The translations under genes and the position numbers were made by a program. Below, piece by piece: positions 32,227-56,034 of a stretch of DNA of 64,000 bases (position 1 is the first letter of the stretch; each line of letters begins with the position of its first letter). The notes under the pieces are model-generated. The model worked only from the letters and a program-made list of their open reading frames with translations, made no database searches and was not told the origin of the DNA. Source of the DNA: Acidobacteriota bacterium (GTDB lineage Bacteria > Acidobacteriota > Thermoanaerobaculia > Gp7-AA8); the NCBI GenBank assembly GCA_021781455.1, contig JAJXWV010000064.1:62001-126000 (forward strand), given 5' to 3'.

Positions 32227-35200
32227 GTGCGACGGCTGCTTCTCTCGTTACGCGCAGTCGCTGCCAGACTCTTACCAGCCAGCGGCGACGCGACAGCAGC
32301 AGAACGAAGTCCGGCGTTCCGGTATGGACGACTGGCTGAACCTCTTCTTGGACTGAGTCTTCGAGCGACTCTGATCAAACATCCGGTGAGAAGCCCGCAA
32401 CCACGACATCGCAAGCATCCTTCCATCGGCGCCTCTCGGCTCTGGTGGCGTGCGTTGTCGAGCGCCGCACTCGTGGCCTCGATCCTGGCAATGAATGCCG
32501 GTGCAGCTCCTGCTGTTCCGTCAGCTGTTGGTGATGCGTCAGCGGCCGTTGCGCGGACCGCCGTCGAGCAGGTCGCGTCCGATGCGACGGCCGGATCGAT
32601 CGACGACTTCGCAAGCCACCTTGCGGTCGCTGCGGCTCTGGTGAAGCAACTGCGCGACGTGAAAGAGCAACAACGCCTTTCCGCAATCGTGCGTGCATTC
32701 GACGACCTGCTGGTCGTATGGCAATACTGGCTGAGCGATCCGGCCGGCGGTTTCTTCGATGATCAGTCCTCGGCTGGTATGTTCAGCCGCCTGGTCCGCG
32801 ACTATCCCGAATACCGCGCCTTCATTGAGCCGTTTGCGATTCGTGCGAATCGCGGCCGCATCCTCTATCCCACGGCAGAGACGCGGCGTTTTCTCATCGA
32901 AGTTGCGCGCGCTCAGCTCGCTCCCGGTCGGTCACCGCGGCCCGAGTCGTCGATTGCGACAAAGGGTGCGCCGCCGACCGTCAGCATTCCATCGGAACGA
33001 TCGGTCTCGACGAACAAGACGCCTGCTGCAGTATCTCCGGCGACAGATGCCCGGATACAAACGAACCGTGTTCAGCCGGAGAGGGTGGCCACGCCGACTG
33101 CCGCCATGTCGCCAATCGCCAATGTTGATGGCTCCTGTGCGTCGTTGACGAAGCTGCAGAACCTCGAGCTGACGCCCACGGGACTCGTCATCAGTGCCGC
33201 TTCGCCGGTGACGGCGAGGATTACCAGAACTCAACAGATCGGCGACGCCGGGTTCGCCGGGTTCACGCTGGTGACCGTTGAGGTGCCGTTCGCTGATCCA
33301 GGCACGACGCCGAGCCGTCTTACCAGTGAACAGGGACCATTCAGCAGTCTGCGCGCCGTTCGTTATCAGAGCTCTGGGGAATGCGGCGTTCGCATCCGTC
33401 TGGAGGCTCGCGAGCAGGGACCGTGGATCGTCGAGACCTCGGGAAATACGATCAGCGTTTCGCGACCGAGAACGCCCGTCCTGACCACCGGCGAGCGGGC
33501 CGAGGTCGCGGCTCAGCAACGGGGCCAATCCGGGAGTATTCATGTCGGAGGCACTTCGTTCGCAGCGTCTAACGGTGCGAATGCGGGAGGACAGGCACAG
33601 ATAGGCTTCGCTACTGATGCCGGCGCTGGTACGACGCTACGCGGTTTCTTCTCGGCTGTGGCGCCGCGCAGCATCGGCGGGGGACCTTACGGAGCGCTGT
33701 CGCTTTCCGGCTTCGAGATTCTCGGCCGACCGGCCGAGATCGGACTCGGCGATCTTGCGGTCTCGATGTCAGGCGAAAGCGTCAGTTCTGCGAGTCAACT
33801 CACGATCCGCGGCCTGGCGGGAGCCATCTACGTTTCGCCGAGGTCGGCCCTCCAGATCTTCGGAGGTCGCGCCGCGCTCTCCTCACTCCGGCGCATTTTC
33901 GAGGACCAGCAGACGTCTGACATTTCCTCGGATCGTGTCGTCGGCGTGACACAGCGGTGGCTTCCGACGGCCACGAACTCGGGATTTTCGTTCGGATGGG
34001 CTCACAGCCTCCCACGGCAAGGCAGAAGCTCCGACGATCTGCTTCAGTCCTTTCAGTTCCGAGCAAACCGGGCGTATGACGTGCGCTTCACGGCCGAAGA
34101 ATCGGTGTCTCGCGAAACAGATCGGACGCTGTTTGGATACGCGTGGACCGTCGAACCACGCGCGGTCATGAAGAAATTGTCGATCAACGGCTTCTACAGG
34201 TACACCAGCCCGGATTTCCACCCGCCACTGGCTTCGAGCTTCTACGCCGGTTTGCGCCGAAGTTACAACCTCACCGGTTCGTATACTCCCACGGAGCGGC
34301 TGACGGTTGGTGCGTCTCTTGGGCAGACAAAGTCTTTCTCTGTCTTCGACCCCGAAGCATCGGGGACCGTCGCTTCATCGATTGCATCGAGTGTGTCGTA
34401 CCGGCTGACGAGGAGGCTTTCGGCGTCGGCGACTTACGCGGAGTCAGGGATGCGCTCCGACCCGGGCGTTCTGGTCGAGACGAACAGCGATACACGGGGC
34501 ACCGGAGGCGGGCTTTTCTTCTCATCGGGTCGTGGCGGCGTGGGGCTGAGCCTTTCTCAGAATCGCACGGTCGACCGGGCCAACGACGCTCTCGATTTCA
34601 ATTCGACGAGACTCGACCTGAACGCAAGCTACGGACGAAACGACTTGCAGTTCCTCGGCCGCTTCCACGTCGGCCACGCCGAACGTGCGACTGGTGCAGC
34701 AGCCGGAGCCGAGTACGGCGGAGCACTCGGGGTCCAGTCGTCGCGCACCTCGGGCGCTCTGCGCGCGGAAACCGGATTCTCTGCCACACCGTCAGGCGTC
34801 GCCGCCCAACCCGTGCGTCAGTTCTATGCCTCCCTTGCGTATACGCCCGCGTCGCAGTTTCGTCTCTTCCAAGGCAGTGCTCAGCTCACGTACCAATCCG
34901 TCCAGGTCAACGGAGAACCGGCGAGAAACGCGCTGCTGGTTTCACTCACCGCAGGAAGACTTTTCGAGTGGGGCCGCGCATCTCGGCCCCTTGCGCCGTA
35001 CGAAACGCGAGCGCTTCAGGTCGGCCAAACGTTGCTGCAGCCGCTGTCCGGGCATGTCGACCTTTATGTGTTCGAAGATCGCAATGACAACGGAAGCCGC
35101 GATCCCGACGAGCCGCTCCTTCCCGGAATTTCTCTCCATCTCGACGAGAGGCGAGTCACGACGGGAAGTTCCGGATTGGCAAGTGTTCTCGTTCCTCCTG

Positions 35201-35637
35201 GAATCCACCATCTGCGCCTGGGCGCAGGTCTAATCACGCAGAGCTACGTCGCAATCCGTCCGCTTCCGCGGATCGAAGTCGGAGCAGGTCAGCACAAGAG
35301 CGCCGCGATTCCGCTCGTCCCTGCCGGGCGCCTGGTCATCCGAGTGCTATTCACCGGGCAAGGAGAAAGCGACGCGCTGCTCTCAGGTATCCGCGTCGTG
35401 GCGCACGGCGAACACACGACCCGAGAACAGGTCACCACCGGTGCCGGCGATATGGCGTTCGGATTGTTGCCCGTCGGGGACTACACCGTGTCCGTCGATC
35501 CGAAGACGCTTGCACCCGAAACGCGTCTGGCGACTCCCGCCTCTTTCAGTGTGAAGATCACTCATGGACAACGCTCAGTGTTGACGTTCCGTATCCGGCG
35601 CGCGACGCTCCGCGAACGATTTGGCGCAAGCACGTAA
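32227..35637 (+). CDS. Large AMIN-domain beta-barrel outer-membrane protein, usher-like in layout
   Basis: The frame gives 1136 residues from GTG 32227; the export signal is late (W-W-R-A-L-S-S-A-A-L-V-A-S-I near residues 73-90), so GTG 32386 may be the true start. Domain order: a helical region (100-230), a Pro/Ser linker, an AMIN-like domain (about 305-415, with L-E-L-T-P-T-G-L-V-I), a long run of amphipathic strands typical of an outer-membrane barrel (430-930), then two Ig/Cna-B-like domains (945-1130) opening with F-E-D-R-N-D-N-G-S-R-D-P-D-E. AMIN domains bind peptidoglycan in secretins and amidases. Barrel plus two C-terminal beta domains mimics ushers, and the pilin- and chaperone-like genes after it suggest it exports them. 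This is inference. Confidence 0.7.
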   Translation: MRRLLLSLRAVAARLLPASGDATAAERSPAFRYGRLAEPLLGLSLRATLIKHPVRSPQPRHRKHPSIGASRLWWRALSSAALVASILAMNAGAAPAVPSAVGDASAAVARTAVEQVASDATAGSIDDFASHLAVAAALVKQLRDVKEQQRLSAIVRAFDDLLVVWQYWLSDPAGGFFDDQSSAGMFSRLVRDYPEYRAFIEPFAIRANRGRILYPTAETRRFLIEVARAQLAPGRSPRPESSIATKGAPPTVSIPSERSVSTNKTPAAVSPATDARIQTNRVQPERVATPTAAMSPIANVDGSCASLTKLQNLELTPTGLVISAASPVTARITRTQQIGDAGFAGFTLVTVEVPFADPGTTPSRLTSEQGPFSSLRAVRYQSSGECGVRIRLEAREQGPWIVETSGNTISVSRPRTPVLTTGERAEVAAQQRGQSGSIHVGGTSFAASNGANAGGQAQIGFATDAGAGTTLRGFFSAVAPRSIGGGPYGALSLSGFEILGRPAEIGLGDLAVSMSGESVSSASQLTIRGLAGAIYVSPRSALQIFGGRAALSSLRRIFEDQQTSDISSDRVVGVTQRWLPTATNSGFSFGWAHSLPRQGRSSDDLLQSFQFRANRAYDVRFTAEESVSRETDRTLFGYAWTVEPRAVMKKLSINGFYRYTSPDFHPPLASSFYAGLRRSYNLTGSYTPTERLTVGASLGQTKSFSVFDPEASGTVASSIASSVSYRLTRRLSASATYAESGMRSDPGVLVETNSDTRGTGGGLFFSSGRGGVGLSLSQNRTVDRANDALDFNSTRLDLNASYGRNDLQFLGRFHVGHAERATGAAAGAEYGGALGVQSSRTSGALRAETGFSATPSGVAAQPVRQFYASLAYTPASQFRLFQGSAQLTYQSVQVNGEPARNALLVSLTAGRLFEWGRASRPLAPYETRALQVGQTLLQPLSGHVDLYVFEDRNDNGSRDPDEPLLPGISLHLDERRVTTGSSGLASVLVPPGIHHLRLGAGLITQSYVAIRPLPRIEVGAGQHKSAAIPLVPAGRLVIRVLFTGQGESDALLSGIRVVAHGEHTTREQVTTGAGDMAFGLLPVGDYTVSVDPKTLAPETRLATPASFSVKITHGQRSVLTFRIRRATLRERFGAST

Positions 35638-35879
35638 ATTGAGCAGGTACACATTTCCGTCGAATGCGAGGTTCCCGCAATGAATAACACTGGAGTTGCA
35701 TCGCGTGCAACCTGTAGTGTCAGCCGGTGACTATGCGTAACTTCCTATATGTAAATGACTTCGGCATGTTCCGACCTGAGCTGACACTCATTTGGGTGAG
35801 GCGTTGTGATAATATTCTTTTGGGTTTGAGGCAAATCGTTAAGAAGCGTCGGCGGTTCTCTAGCCGGCAGGGAGAGGCT

Positions 35880-36608
35880 ATGAAGCGAGTCTCGGTTGTT
35901 TTCTCAACAGTCCTGGTGTCTCTGGTTGTGGGCTTTGTCATCCTACTGAGTGGTCCGGTTGCCGAGGCGGGTACGCCGACCACCAGCACCACCACGAGTG
36001 CAGTCGGTAGCGCTCACAGCGTCAACGTCAGCGTGCCGGGCATCGTCGGAGTCGATCTGGAATCGGATCCGACGTGGGATTTCAGCACGTATACCGCGGC
36101 GGCGAATAACGCGACCTGTACAAACTCCAACAACCTCTGGCCGATCTCGATCACATGTGCGGGCGAAACCGCGACCACCTTACTGTTCGATCCGACGAAC
36201 TCCACCGATCCCGGAATTGGAACGTCACCGCTGAATTCTGTCGCCGGCGTACCGGCAACGGCCGGCACGAAGGCGATCTGGCTGGCGTTCTTCTGCAGCC
36301 GAACGTCAGGTGGCACGCTGGCGATTTCGACGACGATGACGGGACTGACCTCGAATACCGGTATCACCGTAGGACAGTTCAAATTTCAAGGTGCGAGTGG
36401 CACGGGCTCTAACAATGCGAAAGCCGTGGGAGGAACGACGGGTTGGACCTCGTTTGCGGCCACTGCCGTGACAGTCCCTGTCGGCAGTCTCAGCGCGCCG
36501 TTCCCCTGGACTCGCGCGGACCAGTTCATCACGCTCCAGCTTCCGAACACTGTTGCACTGGCTGAAGGTTCGGATAGCGCGAGTATTCAATACACGATCT
36601 CCAAGTAA
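35880..36608 (+). CDS. Exported pilin-like subunit (candidate major subunit)
   Basis: This 242-residue protein starts at ATG 35880 after G-G-G-A-G-A-G-G. A signal peptide ends near A-E-A/G-T (residue ~31). The mature protein is a Thr/Ser/Gly-rich beta-sandwich beginning S-V-N-V-S-V-P-G-I-V-G-V-D-L, a motif echoed in the 41480 protein (S-V-S-V-T-V-P-A-V-A-G-F-D-V). Four cysteines could form two disulphides. It overlaps the chaperone-like gene by one base. Role as a fibre subunit is inferred from size, composition and neighbours; it is not a recognisable SCPU or FimA pilin. Confidence 0.6.
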   Translation: MKRVSVVFSTVLVSLVVGFVILLSGPVAEAGTPTTSTTTSAVGSAHSVNVSVPGIVGVDLESDPTWDFSTYTAAANNATCTNSNNLWPISITCAGETATTLLFDPTNSTDPGIGTSPLNSVAGVPATAGTKAIWLAFFCSRTSGGTLAISTTMTGLTSNTGITVGQFKFQGASGTGSNNAKAVGGTTGWTSFAATAVTVPVGSLSAPFPWTRADQFITLQLPNTVALAEGSDSASIQYTISK

Positions 36609-37537
36609 TGCGGACATCTCCTTTTCGGCGGAGTTCGCGGGTCGCACTCGCGGACTCCCGATATTCCTGTCTCCGCCTCTTCGCCATCCTCCTCGTTTCG
36701 TTGATGGCTTCTCCGCTGGCGGCACTGGGGCTTCTCGTTTCGCCGACGCAGTTAGGCCTGGTCGGCAAGCCAGGCCAGATTGTCTCGGGGACGCTCCACG
36801 TATCGTCTTCCAAGTCGGAGGAAAACCACATCAGTCTCGCGATCAGCGACTTCACGCGGAATGAAGACGGACAGGTCGTGGAGATCCTCGATTCCAAGCT
36901 GCAGCCTCGCAGCTGCAAGGGGTGGATCGACGTCGACCGGTCGGATTTCGTCAGCCCGGCCGTCGGATCGGTTGACGTGACAGTCAGCGCCAGGATTCCT
37001 GCCGACGCTACGGGCAGTTACTGGGCTCTGGTGGCGCTTGCCTCCCAACCCCCGGCTCGTGACCTGAGGGGCCAGGGTGTTGCCATTCGTCTCATTCCCC
37101 GAGTCGCGATTCCGATCGTGGTTACCGTGGAAGGCACAACGAAGCCGGCCGTGGCAATCATCGAAACCCGCGCAGTGCGAGCGGACAAAGGTGTAGACGT
37201 TTACTCGACCATCGAGAACACGGGAAACACGGCGGTGCTCATCTCGGCGGCTTTTTCACTGGAGCGTCGCTCGACCGGCGGTGGGGAAGCGGAAGAGCTG
37301 GCCGGCACAACGGTCGGTCCACTCACATCGCTTCCGGGCACGCGAATGAAAGCGAAAGGCCACCTTGAATACGATGGATCGCTCGCTGGGGTGCAGGCGC
37401 ACGCGTACCTGAGATACGGACCCGATGCGGCCGACTCGACCGAAGCCGTCGCTGTCATCGAGGATCGCCCCCCGGTAAGGCAGGATTCGGCGGTTAACGG
37501 GACCTCCCCCAGTGCCGCACATCCTGTTAAGCGATGA
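36608..37537 (+). CDS. Exported chaperone-like two-domain beta protein
   Basis: This is a 309-residue protein with an N-terminal signal (L-F-A-I-L-L-V-S-L-M-A-S-P near residues 24-36). Two Ig-like domains follow: V-S-P-T-Q-L-G-L-V-G near residue 45, then T-G-S-Y-W-A-L-V near 135, P-I-V-V-T-V-E-G-T near 172 and N-T-G-N-T-A-V-L-I at the start of domain 2. This layout parallels periplasmic pilus chaperones, which complete a strand of the subunit before export. The protein at 41922 is a clear paralogue. Neither matches classical PapD motifs well. Confidence 0.6.
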   Translation: MRTSPFRRSSRVALADSRYSCLRLFAILLVSLMASPLAALGLLVSPTQLGLVGKPGQIVSGTLHVSSSKSEENHISLAISDFTRNEDGQVVEILDSKLQPRSCKGWIDVDRSDFVSPAVGSVDVTVSARIPADATGSYWALVALASQPPARDLRGQGVAIRLIPRVAIPIVVTVEGTTKPAVAIIETRAVRADKGVDVYSTIENTGNTAVLISAAFSLERRSTGGGEAEELAGTTVGPLTSLPGTRMKAKGHLEYDGSLAGVQAHAYLRYGPDAADSTEAVAVIEDRPPVRQDSAVNGTSPSAAHPVKR

Positions 37538-38445
37538 CCTCGCGGCGAACCATGCTTTTGGCCGTTGTGATCTGCGCGGCGTCCGCGGCTGTCGCTGCAG
37601 CACCGGGACCCCCTTCGATCGTCGTTCTTTCACCGTTAGTTGACCTTGGCTCCGTCAGACCATCAGTCGACGGAATCGCCGCGCCGGAGCCGAGGAGCGC
37701 TCCCATTCCGCTGCTCATTCAGAGTTCCTCGCCATGGTCGCTCACCGCGACGCTGGAGTCGAATTCAGCTGCAACGCAGTTACTGCCGGACGGCGATCGA
37801 ATCGAGATTCGCCCGGCGGGACGCGTCTGGACTCGCCTGCAGCTTTCACTGCCGATTCCTTTAGCATCGGGTGGCGAGACCGGGCCTGCCGGAGATTCCA
37901 TACCGCTGGAGGTCCGCGTGATCTCCACGCTCGATTCTCCGCCGGGCTCTCGTCACGTCCGGATTCGCTTTGCCATCGCGAGCGATTCCAACACCGGGTT
38001 CGCCGATGTTTCGTATGCCGTTCCTGTCGTGACGCAGCTGAACGATGACTTGACCCCGTTCGTTTCGCCACGGGTAAACCCCGCACGGCCCGGTCTCTAC
38101 CCTTACGAAATCCGCACTTATCAGGTCGTCAGCAATGTGCCCTGGGTCGTCGAGGCGACCTTGAGCGCTCCTGCGATCGCACAGGCCAGCGCCGCGACAC
38201 TGCCACAGAACACGCTCGTCATCACGAATGAGACGGGTGTGGCGCAGCCACTCGTTCCAAACGAGCCTGTGGCGATCGCATCCGGAGGGGCCAGTGGCCA
38301 GCAACCGCGAAGTGTTCAGCTGAGACTGGCGGTGAAGGTGGATGACGCGGTCCTGCCGGCCGGCGATTACAGTGGCCAGCTCTCTCTTTCCATCCGACCC
38401 GCTGCTTCATCGGGCAGTGGGACCGAAGCGGCCGTTCGACGCTGA
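37534..38445 (+). CDS. Exported two-domain beta protein (candidate minor subunit)
   Basis: This is a 303-residue protein overlapping the previous gene by ATGA. A signal peptide (M-L-L-A-V-V-I-C-A-A-S-A-A-V-A-A-A) precedes two domains of about 130 residues, the second starting near S-P-R-V-N-P. Each starts with Pro-rich strands and ends in a strand pattern like S-V-Q-L-R-L-A-V-K-V. It could be an adaptor or tip subunit, or a third chaperone. No family is recognised. Confidence 0.55.
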   Translation: MTSRRTMLLAVVICAASAAVAAAPGPPSIVVLSPLVDLGSVRPSVDGIAAPEPRSAPIPLLIQSSSPWSLTATLESNSAATQLLPDGDRIEIRPAGRVWTRLQLSLPIPLASGGETGPAGDSIPLEVRVISTLDSPPGSRHVRIRFAIASDSNTGFADVSYAVPVVTQLNDDLTPFVSPRVNPARPGLYPYEIRTYQVVSNVPWVVEATLSAPAIAQASAATLPQNTLVITNETGVAQPLVPNEPVAIASGGASGQQPRSVQLRLAVKVDDAVLPAGDYSGQLSLSIRPAASSGSGTEAAVRR

Positions 38446-38504
38446 TCGGCGCCAAAATTGCGGAAACTTAACGACAGGACGACGCCGCCGGTGACGCCCT
38501 CGTC

Positions 38505-41228
38505 ATGAGAATTGTGAGTGCACCAGCCGACGCTCGCTGGCGACCGAGAGGTATCGACGAGATGAGACTGTCGATCAGAACGCGATCATTGTGGCCGTCG
38601 GATACTCGTGCGCTGACGGGATATCGGCGCCGTACCGCGGTCGGTCTGCTGCTCGGCCTCTCAGTTGTGGTTGCGTTCGGGATCTCGTCGCCAGCGGCAG
38701 CCCAGAGCTGCTACGGCCTTCAGTCCTACGGCGGTGCGTCCACGGTGAACCTCGTATCGGCTGTACCGGATGTTGGGACCTCTCCATCGAACATGAACGC
38801 GCTCGAGAGTCCCACGCCGGCTTACTACCAGCTTTCGACGTTTGCGGGCCCGGCTTCCGTCACCATTGCGACGGCGCTCGTCTCCGGTTCGATCGCTGAT
38901 AACGACAAGGCGCCCCTCGGGCTGACGTTCATCAACGGCAGTGCTGCGGACGTGAAGATCCGGCAGGTGAGGGTCCAGTCGGATCGCAGCAAACTGCCTC
39001 TGTTCCGCACATCCCCGAAGCCCACCAACATCGGTCCGCTCGTTGGAACGTGGGCGGTGTCCGCAGACCGTTACGACGCCGTCTGGACCGCGCCCTCCGG
39101 CGGCTATACGGTTCCGTTGAAGAGCGCGCAGGGCTTCCTGGCGAACATCTTTGTGTCCAACGTTGGCGCAAACATCCTGGGCGATCTCGTCGGCGGCAGC
39201 ATCACAACGTGCGCAAGCGTGTGCAACGGAACCGACGACCTCACAACCTATGTGGCGCAGGCGTACGCGACCGACCTCTACGTTCCAATCTCATCGCAGA
39301 AGGTCGCTACGGCCGTCGTGGGATTCGTCGATGGCGGCAACTTCCCCCGCACGACGAACACGGCGACCTATGGCCCGCCCGCCAACCTCATCGGTGGTCA
39401 GGTCAGCACGATTCGTGTGCGTGCGAAGGAGTGGTCAGGCAACCAGAGCATCGCCTCAGGTCTGCGGCTCACCGTCACGCTTCCCGCTCAATGGACGAAC
39501 GTGTCCGTCACGGCGGCCGGCGCGCCGTGGAATCTCGCGACGGCAACGGTCAGCGGGTCGAGCGCCACGGGCTGGACGATCACCATCTCGACGAATGCTG
39601 TGATTCAGAAAGGCACTTCGACCGGCGACGTGACGATCACCGCCACGCCGCCGGTGGTTTACACCAAGAGCACATTCCAGGCGAAGGCGTCTCTATCAGG
39701 CCACGACACGTCGGCCGTGCCGGCCGGCGGTCATCCGATCCGATCCGTGTGCGATGGCGGTGGAACGGTTCTGCCGGTTCAGGGCGGCGGCGGGTCGTCC
39801 GTGCTGAACGTTGAATTCCTTTCGCCCAGGCTCAATGCAGGCCCGACGAAAGCACCGGTCGAACAGATCGACTTCAGGACCGACTTCGACATCATCAATG
39901 ACGCTGAACCGATCAGTGTCACCGCTCAGGCCTACAACTTCACGACCAACACGTGGCAGACGATCAGCGGCACGCCTGTAACGCCTTCAGGCTCGAATGT
40001 GACGATTACCGAGACGTTTTCGGGTGACTCGCTGTTCGATTTGCTCGACGATCAGATGCGTATGCGCGTTCGTTTCTTCACCAGCGTCGGCGGGCCGCAG
40101 ACGCTGCGCATTGACTACCTCACCTGGAACGCGCAGGCGTACTGGGCCGTCGACAACACACCGGGTATCGGGAGTGACACGTGGCCCGCAGGGACGAAAT
40201 TCGCAGGTTCCACAAAGTATCCGTTCGCGTCCTTCGCGCAGGCAACGTCCGTGACAACGGGCGGTGAGCGAGTCCGTGTCATGGTCGGTGCGAGCCAGAG
40301 TGGAACGCCGTACCCCGCGGACGTCGCTCTCGGCTCCTCGGCTGCAGGCACAGCAACGTGTCGGACTTGGTTTGAAGGCGTGACGAGCGGGTCGCAGATG
40401 CCGCGCCTCCGCGGTGCGGATCCGACGCTTGACTGGGGCTTCGACGTTGCCGCAGATCACGTCAGGATCAGCGGTTTCCGCATCGAAAATATGTACGCAG
40501 CACTGCTCGCGGAGAATCCCGCGACCGATGTCGTGTTCGACGGCAACAGCGTTGAGCTCGCGGACCTCGCGTACGGCATCGTCCTCAACAACTTCGACCC
40601 CGACGTGCCACCGACCGCGCCGAGCACCGGCCTCCAGGCGACGAACAACACGATCGACGGCACCGGATTTCAGGCGTTCTCGGCGATCATGGACTTAGGG
40701 GCGCAGGCGTCGGTCATCGACGGAAACCGATTGATCTCTGCTGCGATCCCAGGCCTGGCGGCGATGTACATCGATGGCGCCACGGCACCTCTCATCCAGC
40801 GGAACATCGTCACGGGCAACTACATCGGGATCTACCTCGCGCGCACGACAAATCCGAAGCTGTACAACAACACCGTCGACGGCAGCACGTACGAGCAGCC
40901 GTACCGTGGAATTCATTGCGAGAGCTCGACCAGCATCGTCTCGCGGAACAACATCATTGCGCGATACGGGATCGGCTTCTCGACCGATACGCCGGGCAGC
41001 GTGGATTCGAATTACGACGGCTTCTGGGCGAATACAACCGCGACGGACGGCTTCACGACTGGGGCGAACAGCCTCGCGGCCGATCCTTTGTTCGTTCAGA
41101 CCACCACGCCGTCACTGGCGACGTACTATCAGCCTGGAACTGGAAGCGCCTGCATTGATGCCGGCACCAACCTCGGTCTCCCGTTCCTCGGCCTCGCGCC
41201 CGACCTCGGCGCCGTCGAATCGCACTAG
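38505..41228 (+). CDS. Large exported adhesin with C-terminal right-handed beta-helix
   Basis: This is a 907-residue protein; ATG 38562 is an alternative start. A signal peptide with a basic R-R-R n-region and a core V-G-L-L-L-G-L-S-V-V-V-A-F ends at A-A-A-Q near residue 67. Residues ~70-430 are beta-sandwich-like, ~440-600 a further domain, and ~610-890 carry the N-N-T/N-x-I/G-I-Y-L periodicity of parallel beta-helix repeats (T-N-N-T-I-D-G, I-Y-L-A-R-T-T-N-P). The end, A-C-I-D-A-G-T-N followed by D-L-G-A-V-E, is the terminal motif of many secreted beta-helix proteins. It probably is the adhesive or tip component of this locus. Confidence 0.65.
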   Translation: MRIVSAPADARWRPRGIDEMRLSIRTRSLWPSDTRALTGYRRRTAVGLLLGLSVVVAFGISSPAAAQSCYGLQSYGGASTVNLVSAVPDVGTSPSNMNALESPTPAYYQLSTFAGPASVTIATALVSGSIADNDKAPLGLTFINGSAADVKIRQVRVQSDRSKLPLFRTSPKPTNIGPLVGTWAVSADRYDAVWTAPSGGYTVPLKSAQGFLANIFVSNVGANILGDLVGGSITTCASVCNGTDDLTTYVAQAYATDLYVPISSQKVATAVVGFVDGGNFPRTTNTATYGPPANLIGGQVSTIRVRAKEWSGNQSIASGLRLTVTLPAQWTNVSVTAAGAPWNLATATVSGSSATGWTITISTNAVIQKGTSTGDVTITATPPVVYTKSTFQAKASLSGHDTSAVPAGGHPIRSVCDGGGTVLPVQGGGGSSVLNVEFLSPRLNAGPTKAPVEQIDFRTDFDIINDAEPISVTAQAYNFTTNTWQTISGTPVTPSGSNVTITETFSGDSLFDLLDDQMRMRVRFFTSVGGPQTLRIDYLTWNAQAYWAVDNTPGIGSDTWPAGTKFAGSTKYPFASFAQATSVTTGGERVRVMVGASQSGTPYPADVALGSSAAGTATCRTWFEGVTSGSQMPRLRGADPTLDWGFDVAADHVRISGFRIENMYAALLAENPATDVVFDGNSVELADLAYGIVLNNFDPDVPPTAPSTGLQATNNTIDGTGFQAFSAIMDLGAQASVIDGNRLISAAIPGLAAMYIDGATAPLIQRNIVTGNYIGIYLARTTNPKLYNNTVDGSTYEQPYRGIHCESSTSIVSRNNIIARYGIGFSTDTPGSVDSNYDGFWANTTATDGFTTGANSLAADPLFVQTTTPSLATYYQPGTGSACIDAGTNLGLPFLGLAPDLGAVESH

Positions 41229-41479
41229 GATTTCCGTCCTTTCCCGCGAACGCCGGCGTTTTGGAGCGCCGCTTGCCGGTTAGGCCGTGAACGCCTCACC
41301 CAAACGGCGCTTGCCGCCGTTGCCGTTTCGACGTATCGATAGGTGCTCGGGTCCGCCATTACATCTTTGCCGAAGGCCTGCTGCTGGACCTCGCTCGAGG
41401 CGCGCTGTGTCGTGCAGCGAGCTGTGATCCGGTGGAAGGCCGCTTTCCGGAGTGGCCCGATTGGGGGAGGCGAACGCCC

Positions 41480-41941
41480 ATGGAAGAGGGATTTCATGCT
41501 TCCGAGTCAGCTCGCCTTGTTGCTTCGGCGATCTTGGCCTTTCTTTTGACAGCGATCACGGTGGCACAACTCCTGGCCGCCGGGATCATCGACGGATCAA
41601 GGGCTGTGGCGTCGACGAGCGTATCGGTCACGGTCCCCGCGGTTGCCGGGTTCGACGTTGCGCCGCTCGACCGAGGCAATGAGATGCGCGCCAGGCGAGT
41701 CGCGGTGCGGCTGTTTCGCAGCAGCGGCGATCCGATTCTCGTTCGCGTGACGCCGGCTCCCCAAACGAATGTTTTCCTGGCCGTCGCGTTGAGGCGTCGC
41801 GCCGGCGGAGTTGTGATGATCCCGGCGCCGCTCGAAAACGGTTGGCAGCAGTTCGAAGCCCACGAAGCAGCATCGCCCTGGCGATTGGCCTCGGGCGCCG
41901 CGCGACCGGCCAAGGTCATCTATGAACTGTGGAACTTCTGA
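41480..41941 (+). CDS. Short exported pilin-like protein
   Basis: This is a 153-residue protein from ATG 41480 with G-G-G-G-G-A-G-G 8 bases upstream. A hydrophobic signal/anchor lies at residues ~15-35. The mature part starts S-V-S-V-T-V-P-A-V-A-G-F-D-V, close to the start of the mature 35880 protein, and is a single small beta domain ending V-I-Y-E-L-W-N-F. It overlaps the next chaperone-like gene by 20 bases, repeating the subunit-then-chaperone order seen at 35880-37537. Minor subunit is the best guess. Confidence 0.55.
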   Translation: MEEGFHASESARLVASAILAFLLTAITVAQLLAAGIIDGSRAVASTSVSVTVPAVAGFDVAPLDRGNEMRARRVAVRLFRSSGDPILVRVTPAPQTNVFLAVALRRRAGGVVMIPAPLENGWQQFEAHEAASPWRLASGAARPAKVIYELWNF

Positions 41942-42755
41942 ACGGAGCCGCGTCGCGGTCGTGGTTCTGGCGCTGTTCGCGGCGTCGTCCTCTGCTCGGG
42001 CGATAGGCGTGCTGGCGCAGCCGATCAACTTCTATCTGACCGGCGACGCCGGATCGACACTCGCGGCTCGCGTGTGGCTCTCCCCGACGGCCGGCGACGC
42101 TGTGGCCTCTCTCTCCGTGACGTCTTTCACTGTCGACCAGCAAGGAAAGCCGGCAAGCTGTGAGGGCCGCCTCGATCGAAGCGTCGTGCCGTGGACATCG
42201 CTCAGCACGCACCGGCTGCTTCTTCGGTCCGGCGGCAGTGAGCCGCTCGATCTGAAGCTCGAGATTCCACTGGCTGCCGTGGGAACCTATTGGGGCGCGG
42301 TCATGATGGATGTCGAGCCGGCTGCGCCCGATCATCTCCTGCCGGTTCGTTCGCGGCTTGCCATTCCTCTCTTCGTGACCGTTCGTGGTACGGAAGCAGC
42401 GCGGGTCCGCATCGAAGAGCTGCATGCGTTCAGGAGTGCGGAGGGTGATGTCCTCGTGAACGCGATGATTGTGAATGACGGCAACACGGTCCTCCATTCG
42501 CCGGTCCTGTTATCAGTGGAGGCGGGCGACCGATCGGCGCCCATCGAGCTCGCGTCGCTCGAGGACACCGTGGTCACGGTATTGCCTGGTAACCGGCGGG
42601 CCATCCGGCTTCTGATTCGAGGCGATTTTGGAGCCGATCGAAAGCTGCGGGTCGGCGCCTGGATCCGGTTCGGCCGGAGTGCATCGGAGGTCGTTGAGGG
42701 GCTGTGTGACGTTCTGCCCACACGGTGCGCAACGCCGGGCTGCGTCGGCAGCTAG
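41922..42755 (+). CDS. Second exported chaperone-like protein, paralogue of 36608-37537
   Basis: This 277-residue protein has a signal peptide (V-A-V-V-V-L-A-L-F-A-A-S-S-S-A-R-A). It shares with the 36608 protein the S-F-T-V/D-F-T-R strand, G-T-Y-W-G-A-V (G-S-Y-W-A-L-V), P-L-F-V-T-V-R-G-T (P-I-V-V-T-V-E-G-T) and N-D-G-N-T-V-L at the domain junction. Two Ig-like domains are expected. Duplication of a subunit/chaperone pair suggests that each chaperone serves its own subunit. Confidence 0.6.
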   Translation: MNCGTSERSRVAVVVLALFAASSSARAIGVLAQPINFYLTGDAGSTLAARVWLSPTAGDAVASLSVTSFTVDQQGKPASCEGRLDRSVVPWTSLSTHRLLLRSGGSEPLDLKLEIPLAAVGTYWGAVMMDVEPAAPDHLLPVRSRLAIPLFVTVRGTEAARVRIEELHAFRSAEGDVLVNAMIVNDGNTVLHSPVLLSVEAGDRSAPIELASLEDTVVTVLPGNRRAIRLLIRGDFGADRKLRVGAWIRFGRSASEVVEGLCDVLPTRCATPGCVGS

Positions 42756-42779
42756 GTGTCGGCTGACTTTCCAGCATGA

Positions 42780-42793
42780 GTGACGAAGTTCAC
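42780..42793. promoter_or_regulatory. CRP/FNR-like dyad GTGA-N6-TCAC (site 1)
   Basis: GTGA (42780-42783) and TCAC (42790-42793) are separated by six bases, the core of CRP-family sites, shortly after the 41922-42755 gene. Confidence 0.4.
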
Positions 42794-42916
42794 AGTCTGT
42801 GACCTCCAGAGGGGCCACATTGCGAGGAAAGCGTCAGATGGCTGTGAACAAAACGCAAATCCAAGGCAGCCCCAGTCGATCTGCCCTATTTGGGTGATGA
42901 CTACCGTCAAAATTCA

Positions 42917-42930
42917 GTGATATAAGTCAC
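42917..42930. promoter_or_regulatory. CRP/FNR-like dyad GTGA-N6-TCAC (site 2)
   Basis: GTGA-TATAAG-TCAC is a perfect core dyad about 33 bases before the next start codon, in a locally A+T-rich patch. It could regulate the 42963 gene from a promoter-proximal position. Confidence 0.45.
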
Positions 42931-42962
42931 AAACATAAATCAAAAGAACGGTCGGGTGCGGG

Positions 42963-43574
42963 TTGGTGAGGCGCGTTGAAGTACCGGCCGAATCAATTGT
43001 GATCGAACCAGCAGCCCGGTGCGCCCCCGGTGCCCCAGCGGCCGTCAGCGGCACGACGGCGCGAAGCCAAGCTGCCGCCCCCCACAAGACCAACAGAATC
43101 GTTACGACGGCACGCCTCCTGCCGGGAGCGGGACGAGTTCTCCTGGTGCTCCTGGTGATCTTCACGGCGCCCCACCTCTTCGCGGGATCGTCCTCGGCAC
43201 CGATGCACGTCTCCGTGACCGTGATCGCGCGCGCCGTGCTCACCGTGGCGAGCCAGCCCACGGCAGTCACCGTGACCGACGCCGACGTCGCCCGCGGGTA
43301 TGTCGACGTGAGCTCTCCGATCGTCGTCCAGGTGCGGACCAACAGCCGGGCCGGGTACTTGCTGCAGGCCGACAGGCAGACTGTTGATTTCGCGACCGTC
43401 GAGCTCCAATTCGGCGAGGCGACGATGACGGTTGCCGATGGCGAGAGCTGGATCAGCCGCCCCTACATTCCTGGCGGCGACGTGATCGCGATGCACGCGC
43501 GTTTGCACCTTGCTCCAGGCATGCAGGCGGGGTCCTATCCGCTGCCAATCGCGCTGAGCGCTCGACCGCTCTGA
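42963..43574 (+). CDS. Exported pilin-like protein
   Basis: This is a 203-residue frame from TTG 42963 (start uncertain). A basic, Ala/Pro-rich N-terminal ~55 residues precede a signal-like core (V-L-L-V-L-L-V-I-F near residue 60). The mature ~125 residues begin M-H-V-S-V-T-V-I-A-R-A-V-L-T-V and form one beta domain with R-T-N-S-R-A-G-Y-L-L. It resembles pilin-like beta-sandwiches and may be a third subunit of the locus. Two CRP-like dyads lie upstream, so it may be separately regulated. Confidence 0.5.
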   Translation: MVRRVEVPAESIVIEPAARCAPGAPAAVSGTTARSQAAAPHKTNRIVTTARLLPGAGRVLLVLLVIFTAPHLFAGSSSAPMHVSVTVIARAVLTVASQPTAVTVTDADVARGYVDVSSPIVVQVRTNSRAGYLLQADRQTVDFATVELQFGEATMTVADGESWISRPYIPGGDVIAMHARLHLAPGMQAGSYPLPIALSARPL

Positions 43575-43707: not shown

Positions 43708-45105
43708 GTGACCGACGAAGAAGCCGCTGTCCGGGTATCACCTCTTCCGGCGGCAATCCTTTCAAAAGATCTCGCATTCCTGAACGTCAACCGGGCGATG
43801 GCTGAGTTCGCCGGACCGCGGGCCAAGGGTCGTACGCTGCTCGACATCGTCGACCTGCGCGATCGCGCGGAGCTGCTGGAAGACTTTGGGAAGCTGCGAT
43901 CGACATCGGAGTCCCTGCGGATCGAGGTACGCCTCGGAACCGAAGAGCCGCAACCGGTCGGTCTCGTCATCGCACGGAAACTTCCGCGTGGCGCCAGCGG
44001 CGCCTACCTGGCTCATCTCGTCGATCTGGCGAGCATCCATCGAAGCGAGCGCTGGAGCCAGCTCCTGCAGGATTTCGAACGAGCCGCGTCTGAGTGGCGC
44101 CGGACCTTCGATGCCGTCGAGCTGCCGATCGTGATCGTCGACGCCGATCTCAACGTCACCCGCATCAACCGCGCCGCGCGGATGCTTGTCGGGAAGCAGT
44201 ACGCGGAAATCATCGGTCACGGCATCGCCGAGGTGGGATCGACCGAGCCGTGGCACTCGATCGCCGAGCTCTCGCGCGAAGTCCGCAAGACCCGTTCACC
44301 GGCCGCACGCCAGGTGAAGGATCCGTCCGATCGCACCCTCGACGTGCTGGCCATGCTCTTCAACACCGACGATCCCGGCGACAACCGCGTGATCTCGATC
44401 GTATGGGACGTCTCCGCTCTCATCGATCTTCAGAAGCGTCTCGAGCAGCAGCGCACGATGGCCACGATGGGAGCGCTCGTGGCGGGCGTGGCCCATGAGG
44501 TCCGCAATCCACTGTTCGCAATCTCCGCCACCGTTGACGCCATGGAGTCGATGGCGGACCCCGGCACGAAGGAGTATTTCGAGGTTCTGCGCGAAGAGAT
44601 CGATCGCATGACCAATCTCATGCAGGACCTGCTCACCTATGGTCGCCCCTCGGCTCCGGTTTTTGAGGGAACGACTGTGGGCTCGATCATCGAGAGTGCC
44701 ATTCGCGCGTCGTCTGCGCTGGCACAGAAGCAGAACGTCCGCATTCGCAGCGACGTCAACGGCGACATCGGGATCGTTGCCGATCGGGAGCGGCTCACGC
44801 GCGCCATCCAGAACCTGGTCGACAACGCCATCCAGCACTCACCGGCGGGTTCCGAGGTTAGTGTCGCCGCTTCCGGTCGAAAGCGCGGGAACGTCGAGAT
44901 CCGGGTCGTCGATCACGGCCCCGGTTTCACCGCTGACGTCATCTCGCGGGTTTTCGAGCCCTTCTTCTCGCGGCGCAAGGGTGGCACGGGTCTCGGCATG
45001 TCGCTGGTCCAGCAGATCGTGACGGAACACGGTGGCGAGGTCTCGGCCGGGAATGCCGCGGCAGGAGGCGGTGAAGTGTTGATTCGCCTGCCGCTGGCGC
45101 GGTGA
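43708..45105 (+). CDS. Soluble PAS-domain sensor histidine kinase, NtrB-like
   Basis: This 465-residue kinase starts at GTG 43708. Two PAS-like domains lie at about 10-110 and 130-240 (second: F-D-A-V-E-L-P-I-V-I-V-D-A-D). The HisKA helix has G-V-A-H-E-V-R-N-P-L with phospho-acceptor H263. The ATPase domain has N-L-V-D-N-A-I-Q-H-S (N box), D-H-G-P-G-F (G1), F-E-P-F-F-S-R-R and G-T-G-L-G-M-S. No membrane helix is seen, so it senses an intracellular signal. It is followed by an NtrC-like regulator, its probable partner. Confidence 0.93.
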   Translation: MTDEEAAVRVSPLPAAILSKDLAFLNVNRAMAEFAGPRAKGRTLLDIVDLRDRAELLEDFGKLRSTSESLRIEVRLGTEEPQPVGLVIARKLPRGASGAYLAHLVDLASIHRSERWSQLLQDFERAASEWRRTFDAVELPIVIVDADLNVTRINRAARMLVGKQYAEIIGHGIAEVGSTEPWHSIAELSREVRKTRSPAARQVKDPSDRTLDVLAMLFNTDDPGDNRVISIVWDVSALIDLQKRLEQQRTMATMGALVAGVAHEVRNPLFAISATVDAMESMADPGTKEYFEVLREEIDRMTNLMQDLLTYGRPSAPVFEGTTVGSIIESAIRASSALAQKQNVRIRSDVNGDIGIVADRERLTRAIQNLVDNAIQHSPAGSEVSVAASGRKRGNVEIRVVDHGPGFTADVISRVFEPFFSRRKGGTGLGMSLVQQIVTEHGGEVSAGNAAAGGGEVLIRLPLAR

Positions 45106-45106
45106 C

Positions 45107-45131
45107 GAGTCCTGAGTCCTGAGTGCTGAGA
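45107..45131. repeat. Short GAGTCCT/GAGTGCT heptamer array
   Basis: Three to four heptamer words of the ACTCAGT family (here in the opposite orientation) lie between kinase and regulator genes, just before GGTATACTCG. Confidence 0.8.
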
Positions 45132-45169
45132 CGGTATACTCGCGCAGCCACCGGGATGAGGAGAGGTGC

Positions 45170-46531
45170 GTGCCGCGCAACAAGGTTCTGCTCGTCGAGG
45201 ATGATCGCGGAATCCGCTTTGGCATCCGCAATTTCCTCATCGGACGCGATTACGACGTCGACGAGGCGGAGACGCTGAAACAGGGCGAGGAGCTGTTCAA
45301 ACAGAACCGCCCCGACATCGCTGTCCTCGACTATTCGCTCCCTGACGGAAACGCGCTCGAGATCCTTCCGCGGCTCAAGGAAGCCGACCCCTCGATTCCC
45401 ATCGTCATCCTCACCGGCCATGGCTCCATCGATCTCGCGGTGCGCGCCATCAAGGAAGGCGCCGAGCAGTTCCTGACCAAACCCGTGCAGATGCAGACGC
45501 TGCTCGTGGTCATCGAGCGACTCCTCGACTCCAAACGAGTCAAGCAGCGCGATCAGGCGCGCACGACCGTGCAGTCGCGCACGGGCGGCGTCGATCCGTT
45601 CATCGGGGTCAGCGATCCGATCAAGGAGCTGCGCGAGCAGGTGGAGCGCATCGTCAGAGCCGACCGCCCGATCCTGATTCTCGGCGAGACCGGAACCGGG
45701 AAGAGCGTTCTGGCCGCGTGGCTGCACCGCAACGGACCTCGCGCCGAGGAAGCGTTCGTCGATCTGAATTGCGCGGGGCTCGCCCGCGAGTTCGTGGAGA
45801 CTGAGCTCTTCGGCCACGAGAAGGGTGCTTTCACGGGCGCGGTCGCGGCGAAGACAGGGCTGCTCGAGGTGGCGCATCGCGGTGTTCTCTTCCTCGATGA
45901 GATTGGCGACGTAGACATCACCGTCCAGCCAAAGCTGTTGAAGGTCCTCGAGGAGAAGAAGTATCGCCGCATGGGCGACGTCCGGGACCGTACCACGGAC
46001 GTCCAGCTGATCGCTGCCACGCATCAGGACCTTCGTGAGGCCATCCGAGAGAAGCGGTTCCGCGAAGACCTCTACTTCCGCATCAGCACCATCCCCCTGA
46101 CGATCCCTCCTCTGCGGAACCGCCCGGCTGACATCCCGCTGCTCGCGGAGTTCTTCCTCCGCCGTTTCGGAAACGAGATGTCCGTGCCGGCGATCGAGCT
46201 GGCGCCGGACGCGATCGAGGCCCTCCGCCGCTACTCCTGGCCTGGCAACGTGCGCGAGCTGAAGAACGTCATCGAGCGGGGCATCCTGCTGAGCGACCGC
46301 AAGGCCGTCGCCGCAAGGGACCTGCGGTTCGAAGTCGAGTCACCGACCGGGCAGGACGGAGTCGGGTTCGGTGACGACATGACTCTCGACGAGCTCGAGA
46401 AACGCTACGTCGAACACGTCCTTCGCAGCGAGGGAGGCAAAGTCGAAGCGGCTTCGCGTCGCCTCGGGATTCCGCGAAGCAGCCTGTATCAAAAGATCAA
46501 GAAGTGGGACATCCCGAGTTCCCGATCTTAG
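45170..46531 (+). CDS. Sigma-54-dependent response regulator, NtrC family
   Basis: This is a 453-residue protein from GTG 45170. The receiver domain has phospho-acceptor D54 (V-L-D-Y-S-L-P-D-G). The AAA+ domain has Walker A G-E-T-G-T-G-K-S (172-179), the sigma-54-contact loop G-A-F-T-G-A (219-224) and Walker B V-L-F-L-D-E-I-G-D. The Fis-type helix-turn-helix is at the end (A-A-S-R-R-L-G-I-P-R-S-S-L-Y-Q-K). It should activate sigma-54 promoters from upstream sites; candidate dyads lie at 47273-47309, before the pilus operon. Confidence 0.95.
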   Translation: MPRNKVLLVEDDRGIRFGIRNFLIGRDYDVDEAETLKQGEELFKQNRPDIAVLDYSLPDGNALEILPRLKEADPSIPIVILTGHGSIDLAVRAIKEGAEQFLTKPVQMQTLLVVIERLLDSKRVKQRDQARTTVQSRTGGVDPFIGVSDPIKELREQVERIVRADRPILILGETGTGKSVLAAWLHRNGPRAEEAFVDLNCAGLAREFVETELFGHEKGAFTGAVAAKTGLLEVAHRGVLFLDEIGDVDITVQPKLLKVLEEKKYRRMGDVRDRTTDVQLIAATHQDLREAIREKRFREDLYFRISTIPLTIPPLRNRPADIPLLAEFFLRRFGNEMSVPAIELAPDAIEALRRYSWPGNVRELKNVIERGILLSDRKAVAARDLRFEVESPTGQDGVGFGDDMTLDELEKRYVEHVLRSEGGKVEAASRRLGIPRSSLYQKIKKWDIPSSRS

Positions 46532-47572: not shown

Positions 47573-48073
47573 ATGAAACGCACGATCATCCTTCTCACCG
47601 CCCTCGCCGCCCTGATCATCTCCACCCCGATGTTTGCCGCCACCGCCACTTCGAACCTCGCGGTCAGCGCGTCCGTCGCAGCAAATTGCACCATCTCAAC
47701 ACTTCCCGTCGCCTTCGGCCCGTATGACCCGCTCGGAGCGAACTCAACCACTCCAGCCGGCGACCTTGCTGGCAGCGGTAGCATCACTGTCACTTGCACC
47801 AAAGGTGGCGGGGCGACGGTCGATCTCGGCTTGGGCCTTTACGCCGTCGGCTCTGTCCGAAATATGAGCGATGCCACCGACACGCTGACCTACGAGCTTT
47901 ATACGGACTCCGGACACACGACCGTATGGGGTTCGGGCGCCACTACCAACACCATCGGCGGTGCTACGAGTAAGACGCCGCGTGTAATCCCGGTGTACGG
48001 TCTCGTGCCGGGTGCCCAGTACGTCGGAGCCGGAAGCTACGTCGACACGGTCGTCGCAACCGTCAACTACTAA
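47573..48073 (+). CDS. Spore coat U-type (SCPU) pilin
   Basis: This 166-residue pilin has a signal peptide ending at M-F-A-A. The SCPU features are A-A-N-C-T-I-S at the start of the domain, F-G-P-Y-D-P-L near residue 48, V-T-C-T-K-G, L-T-Y-E-L-Y-T-D and Y-x-D-T-V-V-A-T-V-N-Y at the end. Subunits of this type polymerise by donor-strand exchange into thin archaic (Csu-like) pili used in surface attachment and biofilm formation. AGGAG lies before the ATG. First position and candidate promoter suggest it is the major subunit. Confidence 0.92.
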   Translation: MKRTIILLTALAALIISTPMFAATATSNLAVSASVAANCTISTLPVAFGPYDPLGANSTTPAGDLAGSGSITVTCTKGGGATVDLGLGLYAVGSVRNMSDATDTLTYELYTDSGHTTVWGSGATTNTIGGATSKTPRVIPVYGLVPGAQYVGAGSYVDTVVATVNY

Positions 48074-48109
48074 CGCGCAACGAGCAGCATTCAACGGATA
48101 ATTCGGGGA

Positions 48110-48886
48110 ATGAGAAGATTGATCGCGCTAACCCTTGGCATCCTCGGCCTGGTCCTCCAGGCCGGGGATGCTGCCGCGAGTGCCTTTCGCGTCACCCCGA
48201 TCCAGGTCCAGTTCTCCGGAAAATCGAGCACCCTGCTGAATCTGAGCAACGAAAGCGACCAACCCCTCCGGTTCCAGATCAGCGCATTCGCCTGGACGCA
48301 GAGTCCGACGGGCGAGATCCAGCTGAGCCCGACCGAGGACATCACGTTCTTTCCATCGCTGCTGAGCCTCAAACCTGGCGAGGAACGCAAGGTACGCGTC
48401 GGCTCGAATGTCACGGCAACGGACAGCGAGAAGACGTACCGGATCTTTTTTGAAGAGCTTCCACCGCCGGAGAAGCCAGCCGGCGAGAAGAAATCGGAAG
48501 TGCGCATTCTGACCAAGATGGGCATTCCGATCTTCGTGCAGCCGCCCAAGGGCACTGCCGAAGCACGAGTTGCTGATTTGAAAACTGACAACGGCCGGGT
48601 GACGTTCCGCGTGACGAACACGGGGAACACACACTACTCGGTTCGGGCGATTCACCTGACGGCGACCGATGCCGGCGGACAGAAGGTGTTCAATCGCGAC
48701 CTCGACGGCTGGTACATCCTGGCCGGTGGAGTTCGCGACTACTCCGTCGACCTGCCGGCCGACAGTTGCCCGAAGATCCGCTCGATCAAGGCGGAAGTTG
48801 TCACCGATATCTCGACGGATGCCAACGCATCGACAGTGAGCACCGAGCAGGCGTTCCCCAACGGGGTCTCCTGCCATCAGAAGTAG
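48110..48886 (+). CDS. Periplasmic pilus chaperone (FimC/CsuC-like)
   Basis: This 258-residue protein has a signal peptide (L-G-L-V-L-Q-A-G-D-A-A-A). Domain 1 has F-R-V-T-P-I-Q-V, L-L-N-L-S-N-E-S and L-L-S-L-K-P-G-E-E-R-K-V-R-V, followed by T-Y-R-I-F-F-E-E-L; these are the usual G1/F1 strand motifs. Domain 2 begins near V-T-N-T-G-N-T-H-Y. The chaperone binds each pilin in the periplasm, supplies the missing strand and delivers it to the usher. Confidence 0.93.
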   Translation: MRRLIALTLGILGLVLQAGDAAASAFRVTPIQVQFSGKSSTLLNLSNESDQPLRFQISAFAWTQSPTGEIQLSPTEDITFFPSLLSLKPGEERKVRVGSNVTATDSEKTYRIFFEELPPPEKPAGEKKSEVRILTKMGIPIFVQPPKGTAEARVADLKTDNGRVTFRVTNTGNTHYSVRAIHLTATDAGGQKVFNRDLDGWYILAGGVRDYSVDLPADSCPKIRSIKAEVVTDISTDANASTVSTEQAFPNGVSCHQK

Positions 48887-48913
48887 CCGGATTCGAGCAG
48901 AGCGGGAACGACA

Positions 48914-49408
48914 ATGCGGAGCGGTATCACAAGACTGATTCTCGCGGGGGCGCTGATGTGCGGCGCCGCGAGCGCCTGGGCAGGGTCGGCGACGACCTTC
49001 CTGCAGGTGTCGGTCAACGTGGTGCCGAACTGCCGCCTCTCGATCACCGATCTAGCATTCGGCAATTACGATCCCCTGCTCGACAACGCCGACCGCCCTC
49101 TCGACGGCTCCGCCCAGCTGCAGATGGTCTGCACCAAGAACTCCCAGGCCAGCATCATGTTCGACACGGGCCAGCACGGCGTCGGGTCGACTCGCGGTAT
49201 GGCCCTCGGCAGCGACCGCGTCAACTATGATCTGTTCCGCGACTCAGCGCGGACGCAGCGCTGGGCCGACACGACCGACGCGCTCCACGTGGTGGGGACG
49301 GGCAGTCGCGATCCGCAGCAGTTCACGGTCTTCGGGCGTGTTCCTGCCGGCCAGGCAGTTGGCGCAGGCGCCTACTTGGATATCGTGACCGCAACCGTCG
49401 ACTTCTGA
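48914..49408 (+). CDS. Second SCPU pilin
   Basis: This is a 164-residue SCPU protein with a signal peptide (L-A-G-A-L-M-C-G-A-A-S-A-W-A). It has N-C-R-L-S-I-T-D-L-A-F-G-N-Y-D-P, a second cysteine in M-V-C-T-K-N, V-N-Y-D-L-F-R-D and the closing D-I-V-T-A-T-V-D-F. It lies between chaperone and usher, unlike the usual arrangement with all pilins before the chaperone, and is probably a minor subunit or adaptor between shaft and tip. Confidence 0.9.
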   Translation: MRSGITRLILAGALMCGAASAWAGSATTFLQVSVNVVPNCRLSITDLAFGNYDPLLDNADRPLDGSAQLQMVCTKNSQASIMFDTGQHGVGSTRGMALGSDRVNYDLFRDSARTQRWADTTDALHVVGTGSRDPQQFTVFGRVPAGQAVGAGAYLDIVTATVDF

Positions 49409-49409
49409 G

Positions 49410-51755: not shown

Positions 51756-51771
51756 TCGGGAGGACGGTTCC

Positions 51772-54787: not shown

Positions 54788-54969
54788 AGGGCTGGCGTTC
54801 ATTACCTCATTCCCGATTTGCCACCGTGGAACAGCGTAACTGCACACCCCAGCAACCCGTCGAAGGAGCATCGGTTTTCACCCCATCGTGACCGGTGCGA
54901 GAATCGACACGCGGCTGCGCCTGTTACGCCGGGCACGGATTTCGTTATCAACCGACTGATTGGTACGGC

Positions 54970-55938: not shown

Positions 55939-55940
55939 GA

Positions 55941-56028
55941 GTGCTGAGTACTGAGTGCTGAGTACTGAGTAGAGGCGTCGCCCACTCAGTACTCAGTACT
56001 CAGCACTCAGCACTCAGCACTCAGTACT
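55941..56028. repeat. Giant inverted heptamer array between moxR-like and DUF58 genes
   Basis: Left arm 55941-55970 (GTGCTGA/GTACTGA words) and right arm 55983-56028 (ACTCAGT/ACTCAGC words) can pair over 30 bases with two wobble mismatches around a 12-base loop. It lies inside an operon, 7 bases before the next ATG. Confidence 0.9.
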
Positions 56029-56034
56029 GCGACG

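Follow-up and report, generated by a model that had tools for sequence, protein, structure and literature searches.

The window analyzed here is a stretch of 64,000 nucleotides from an Acidobacteriota bacterium (assembly GCA_021781455.1, contig JAJXWV010000064.1, positions 62,001 to 126,000), in which an earlier note, made without database searches, had described eight consecutive genes for exported or outer-membrane proteins as a candidate export system resembling the chaperone-usher (CU) systems. All eight open reading frames (ORFs), named below after their first nucleotide, lie on the + strand where the note had placed them. The 32227 gene (32227–35637) encodes an outer-membrane barrel protein, proposed here to be a plug-less usher-like pore; 35880 (35880–36608) a pilin-like subunit; 36608 (36608–37537) a two-Ig-domain chaperone-like protein; 37534 (37534–38445) a two-domain secreted beta protein, probably a subunit; 38505 (38505–41228) a beta-helix protein, probably an adhesin; 41480 (41480–41941) a short pilin-like subunit; 41922 (41922–42755) a second chaperone-like protein; and 42963 (42963–43574) a secreted beta protein whose membership of the export unit is uncertain. 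The two overlaps between a pilin-like and a chaperone-like gene were found as described (1 base between 35880–36608 and 36608–37537, 20 bases between 41480–41941 and 41922–42755), and 36608–37537 and 37534–38445 also overlap, by 4 bases. These ORFs are more than chance reading frames, since the homologues of five of them keep this order in a second family of the phylum. Judging from these sequence comparisons, the conserved core consists of the five genes between 32227 and 41228 (barrel, pilin-like protein, chaperone, two-domain beta protein, and beta-helix protein).

In that other family of Acidobacteriota (locus L115), the five core genes are all present in the order of the window, with identities of 29–41%: 34% for the barrel protein 32227 (E 9e-131), 29% for 35880 (E 1e-16), 41% for 36608 (E 9e-59), 31% for 37534 (E 1e-34), and 34% for 38505 (E 3e-92). 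A search with 36608 yielded two more copies in its own genome, namely 41922 and a protein encoded on contig C74, as well as matching proteins in relatives, family profiles detect the chaperone throughout the Acidobacteriota, and the relatives carrying the system include a Thermoanaerobaculia bacterium. The neighborhoods L012–L015 carry a beta subunit, a pilin-like subunit, a chaperone, and a large barrel with two C-terminal Ig-like domains. Compared with the five-gene core, a looser set of pilin-like protein, chaperone, beta protein, and barrel is found again across the phylum. Among the relatives' loci with enough flanking sequence, read from ORF lists and leaving out clear archaic operons and unexamined weak matches, the chaperone gene adjoins a barrel-type gene of 640–1050 amino acids in 29 out of 31, the pairing being broken in L118 and L120, and small secreted beta proteins are encoded in most of them. 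By an independent route, the window barrel used as the sole query led to the barrels of chaperone-bearing operons in genomes G204, G309, and G316. A pattern scan of the genome contigs (FGPVPGGEL and one other pattern) returned three loci because both patterns belong to one subgroup, and is a poor guide to the spread of the system. The earlier note had made its reading depend on these families occurring together, and they do so: the five-gene order is intact in genome G376, and the association between the chaperone and a large barrel-type gene extends to a second phylum.

In this second phylum, four Deinococcus plasmid records carry genes for a subunit, a chaperone, and a beta protein along with a barrel-sized gene. 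D. psychrotolerans is one carrier of the plasmid operon. For the NW-56 chaperone, the match to the family profile reaches Prob 99.8 (E 6e-29), and for the NW-56 beta protein, Prob 80.6. A three-gene version (subunit, chaperone, and barrel) is present on plasmid 2 of D. deserti (L139, 4366–8214), where the annotation calls the chaperone a FimB/Mfa2 family fimbrial subunit, a name that is probably misleading. On contig C74 of the window's own genome (L011, 7251–12268), a second short subunit/chaperone pair is followed by a REC-EAL protein, with an NtrC-like gene on the opposite strand and a close homologue of 42963; the subunit of this pair (7251–7733) is a paralogue of 41480.

Matches to Pfam and NCBIfam were sparse in the eight genes: weak carboxypeptidase-regulatory/SdrD_B matches at the end of 32227, a beta-helix in 38505, and little else. 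The classical archaic pilus operon reported next door is indeed present at 47573–52689, where an SCPU protein, a PapD_N chaperone, an SCPU protein, an Usher protein, and a two-domain SCPU protein follow each other (the SCPU matches being in 47573, 48914, and 51772). While this operon matches all three models, none of the eight genes has an SCPU, PapD_N, or Usher match, which agrees with the earlier impression that their sequences are unlike those of known CU families.

The 36608 and 41922 proteins, described previously as paralogues, form one clade in the chaperone tree with a support of 99/95 (the row G003_archaic, translated in the wrong frame, being disregarded) and share 29% identity (E 3.3e-17). 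A single-sequence search of 36608 against the PDB sequences gave no match, and profiles were needed. The AlphaFold2 (AF2) model of 36608, based on 23 sequences, has a predicted local distance difference test score (pLDDT) of 86.2 and consists of two beta-sandwich domains; this predicted PapD-type fold and the profile match between the chaperone family and the archaic chaperone next door (Prob 95.9) support the two-Ig-domain chaperone reading. The best Foldseek match of the model was the WxLIP of Enterococcus faecium (9i25; E 7e-12), followed by CfaA (E 2e-10), CsuC, and Caf1M. In VIA-align, WxLIP gave a Z of 15.2 with a root-mean-square deviation (rmsd) of 7.2, versus Z values of 12.5–13.1 and rmsd values of about 4.3–5.8 for the CU chaperones (12.5 and 4.3 in the case of EcpB). 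The chaperone family also shows weak profile matches to EcpB (E 0.038) and WxLIP (E 0.005). The Pfam family WxLIP_PGBD (PF06030) was not matched by either 36608 or 41922, and no C-terminal membrane helix was found on reading their sequences. Since 7 of the 23 family members match WxLIP_PGBD and 5 match PapD_N, mostly weakly, the family sits between the CU chaperones and WxLIP, and these chaperones link the CU chaperones with the WxL/WxLIP system of monoderm bacteria. The proposed donor strand G1 of 36608 (VAIRLIPRVAIPIVV, 37079–37123, + strand), aligned in sequence to G1 of CsuC via the archaic chaperone 48110, retains the alternating hydrophobic residues of CsuC 110–116, which are less regular in 41922; at the position of CsuC Arg115, the aligned family members mostly have a basic residue. 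On a Streptomyces plasmid (L138, 2272–3867), a secreted WxL-like protein adjoins a WxLIP-like protein that has a hydrophobic helix at its C-terminus; this pair is possibly the monoderm counterpart of the subunit/chaperone pair.

The earlier note had asked whether the 32227 product would fold into an usher-like barrel with a plug and terminal domains, and this was borne out in part. The weak AF2 model of 33124–35634 shows a large barrel of about 25–26 strands, the barrel region spanning model residues 151–616 (33574–34971, + strand), with Ig-like domains at the end (35050–35601, + strand). A plug-sized insert was not found in this model, in which confidence is low and the longest gap near the expected site amounts to about 15 residues (model residues 252–266). 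The eleven best Foldseek matches of the barrel model were all FimD/PapC (E 3e-15 to 4e-10), with alignments spanning the barrel and the C-terminal domains. At the sequence level, PF00577 (Usher), which the neighboring usher 49410 matches at 1e-28, was not matched by ten related barrels (E up to 0.1), six more (E up to 5), or two Deinococcus barrels, nor were CooC_C and TcfC found in 32227. The two C-terminal Ig-like domains announced for 32227 are corroborated by Pfam, the model, and profile comparison, and the same pair occurs in related barrels: CarboxypepD_reg and SdrD_B, which fall below the Pfam cut-offs in 32227, exceed them in many relatives, and these domain types were found by Pfam in all 16 related barrels scanned. 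The AMIN domain proposed in the same protein found no Pfam match (E up to 1), nor was there any in its orthologue (E up to 5); since the region concerned also folds with low confidence, AMIN remains a guess.

Barrels with an N-terminal region and a plug are present beside members of the same chaperone family in L106, L107, L108, L116, L117, and L121. These plugged barrels align along the archaic usher 49410 (Prob 79.6, E 1.5e-5), and their C-terminal domain pair matches that of 32227 (Prob 93.5, E 2.3e-7). The window barrel was not retrieved with a profile built from four related barrels (A5), which matched it only weakly, at the C-terminal domains. The model depicts, with low to moderate confidence, a barrel with usher-like C-terminal domains, and 32227 may be an usher-like pore which has lost its plug or never had one. 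Among the related barrels, those at L100 (5927–8560) and L105 (9755–12913) end in a peptidoglycan-binding SPOR domain, and those of L104 and L105 start with a Cu_amine_oxidN1-like domain.

The pilin-like proteins 35880 and 41480 do share an alternating motif at their start, although its form had been given incorrectly: the motif common to both is V-x-V-x-V-P-x-x-x-G-x-D, 35880 reading V-N-V-S-V-P-G-I-V-G-V-D. In 35880, the proposed donor strand with this alternating hydrophobic start (VNVSVPGIVGVD) is encoded at 36021–36056 (+ strand). The pattern is found again in L115 and, in a looser form, in four Deinococcus subunits, and is what would be expected of a donor strand at the N-terminus. In 37534, the first half shows homology to the beta subunit, a single-domain protein, of related operons (Prob 96.0, E 4e-9). 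No SCPU (PF05229) match was found by Pfam in 35880, 41480, or 42963, homology was not established between the window-type subunit profile and a Deinococcus subunit, and no WxL match was found in the 14 related subunits scanned. In 38505, the beta-helix described in the earlier note is confirmed by Pfam (PF13229, E 2e-9).

As a single unit, the eight genes hold together in part: the five core genes are conserved together, but 42963 possibly lies outside. In genome G006 (L134, 4178–9112), the homologue of 42963 stands beside a kinase gene, an NtrC gene, and an SCPU-like gene, on a contig carrying no chaperone or barrel gene; for this reason, 42963 may be part of the neighboring kinase/NtrC module and not of the export unit. 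Homologues of 42963 also occur inside the clusters of G012 and G014. In the window, this module consists of the ORFs of a sensor kinase and an NtrC-type regulator (43708–46531, + strand), possible regulators of the locus; a homologue of the kinase is located next to the cluster in G012, and homologues are present in 10 of the 18 genomes of the family. Sites of the sigma-54 type (-24/-12) were detected 29–48 bases before the first subunit gene in L098, L099, L110, L111, and L113, where an NtrC-type gene is nearby. Sigma-54 control would be expected from the adjacent NtrC gene in the window as well, but no -24/-12 site was found there by the pattern used for these five loci. Farther downstream, genes for a MoxR-type ATPase, a DUF58-like protein, and a membrane transglutaminase-like protein were recognized by eye in a row (54895–58978).

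The conserved linkage, the large barrel with Ig-like ends, and the CU-type chaperone fold all support the CU-like architecture put forward in the earlier note, and we consider it likely that the locus encodes a diverged CU-like system for exporting and assembling surface subunits. Its most likely mode of action would be donor-strand complementation, with export taking place through a plug-less usher-like pore. The exported pilin-like and beta subunits would be held in the periplasm by the chaperones 36608 and 41922, strand G1 of which would complete the subunit fold. The subunits would then be passed to 32227, the plug-less outer-membrane pore, where the C-terminal Ig-like domains would take them up; the chaperone strand would give way to the N-terminal strand of the incoming subunit, the chain growing outward, with the beta-helix protein 38505 as the likely tip or surface adhesin. 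The analysis itself establishes which genes are present, that their order and association are kept, and what folds are predicted for the chaperone and, less confidently, the barrel; complementation, export via the barrel, fiber assembly, and adhesion are all steps that we infer.

The locus resembles the archaic (sigma) CU pili, such as Csu of Acinetobacter, in its two-Ig-domain periplasmic chaperone with an alternating hydrophobic G1, its small exported beta subunits, its large outer-membrane barrel with C-terminal Ig-like domains, and the grouping of the genes. It differs from them in that SCPU, PapD_N, and Usher matches are absent, the barrel model has no plug, and the CsuC residues Pro59 and Arg89 are missing. 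FimD and PapC resemble the window barrel as its best Foldseek matches, whereas the latter shows neither a plug (in the model) nor a PF00577 match nor a recognized usher N-terminal domain. The alternative (alpha) chaperones CfaA and EcpB share the chaperone fold, and EcpB also the weak profile match, but the anchor residues and usher families of their systems are different. WxLIP (DUF916/DUF3324), encoded in the WxL clusters of monoderms, is the best fold match and likewise stands beside a small secreted beta protein, but carries a membrane helix at its C-terminus and lacks a barrel partner; it has been described as a surface linker and not as a chaperone (PMC10599100). The system is not a canonical CU member, since neither an Usher match nor a plug was found, and the window chaperones, when examined for the invariant proline and anchor arginine, had neither. 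No description of it was found in the open-licence literature, although one may exist elsewhere.

Several results weigh against a CU-like system. The barrel model is weak (mean pLDDT 64.7, predicted template modeling score 0.50), other large barrels score equally well against it in VIA-align, and 32227 does not match PF00577 at E values up to 1. CsuC Pro59 in strand D1, the only invariant residue of the chaperone superfamily (PMC4654587), is replaced by R, K, T, and T in 36608, L115, 41922, and L002, although the remaining 20 aligned family members have it, and the carboxylate-anchoring Arg89 in strand F1 is Trp in all four of these window-type chaperones (many relatives having R at this position, and the rest H or another residue). 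Comparison of the subunits with SCPU and CU pilins did not establish homology, and in the structural matches the CU chaperones rank below WxLIP, a protein that belongs to no secretion system. This last result, the WxLIP_PGBD matches in 7 of 23 family members, and the WxL-like/WxLIP-like pair on the Streptomyces plasmid, which has no barrel, are what might be expected if the locus encoded a WxLIP-like surface scaffold, in which the chaperone-like proteins stay in a lasting complex with their beta partners and the barrel serves as an outer-membrane anchor or porin. We regard such a scaffold as rather unlikely, as the window proteins do not have the C-terminal membrane helix of WxLIP, the rmsd to WxLIP exceeds that to the CU chaperones, no WxL domain was found in the related subunits scanned, and the linkage to a barrel with usher-like C-terminal domains is steady.

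That the locus is an ordinary archaic CU pilus which has drifted beyond the reach of Pfam is still less probable. The profile match to the archaic chaperone next door would fit this explanation, and while classical and alternative CU systems are limited to beta- and gamma-proteobacteria, archaic ones have been reported in several more phyla, including Deinococcus-Thermus (PMC4654587). On the other hand, the adjacent operon is recognized by all three models and the eight genes by none, the barrel model shows no plug, Pro59 and Arg89 are absent from the window chaperones, and the archaic chaperones form a long separate branch in the tree. The gaps of 208–252 bases between some of the genes, which may make up more than one transcription unit, and the occurrence of 42963 apart from the rest might suggest that unrelated exported surface proteins have become neighbors by chance; this is highly improbable and was rejected because the five-gene order is kept between distant genomes, the association of chaperone and barrel also being found in two phyla.

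Going beyond a diverged CU-like system, we see about even chances that the locus represents a further, undescribed CU class found in Acidobacteriota and Deinococcota, with a plug-less pore and differently anchoring chaperones related to WxLIP; in that reading, the common ancestry of the chaperones and WxLIP would mean that the pair of chaperone and subunit may predate the usher. Genome pipelines detect CU pili through the Usher, PapD, and SCPU models. Since the window genes escape these models, Acidobacteriota and Deinococcus may have surface structures that go unnoticed; the Deinococcus plasmid genes and the phylum-wide gene sets are mostly annotated "hypothetical protein". A plug-less pore would test whether gating by the plug is essential, chaperones with neither the otherwise invariant proline nor the anchor arginine would test the requirements of strand donation, and through the connection to WxLIP the origin of the CU pathway becomes testable.

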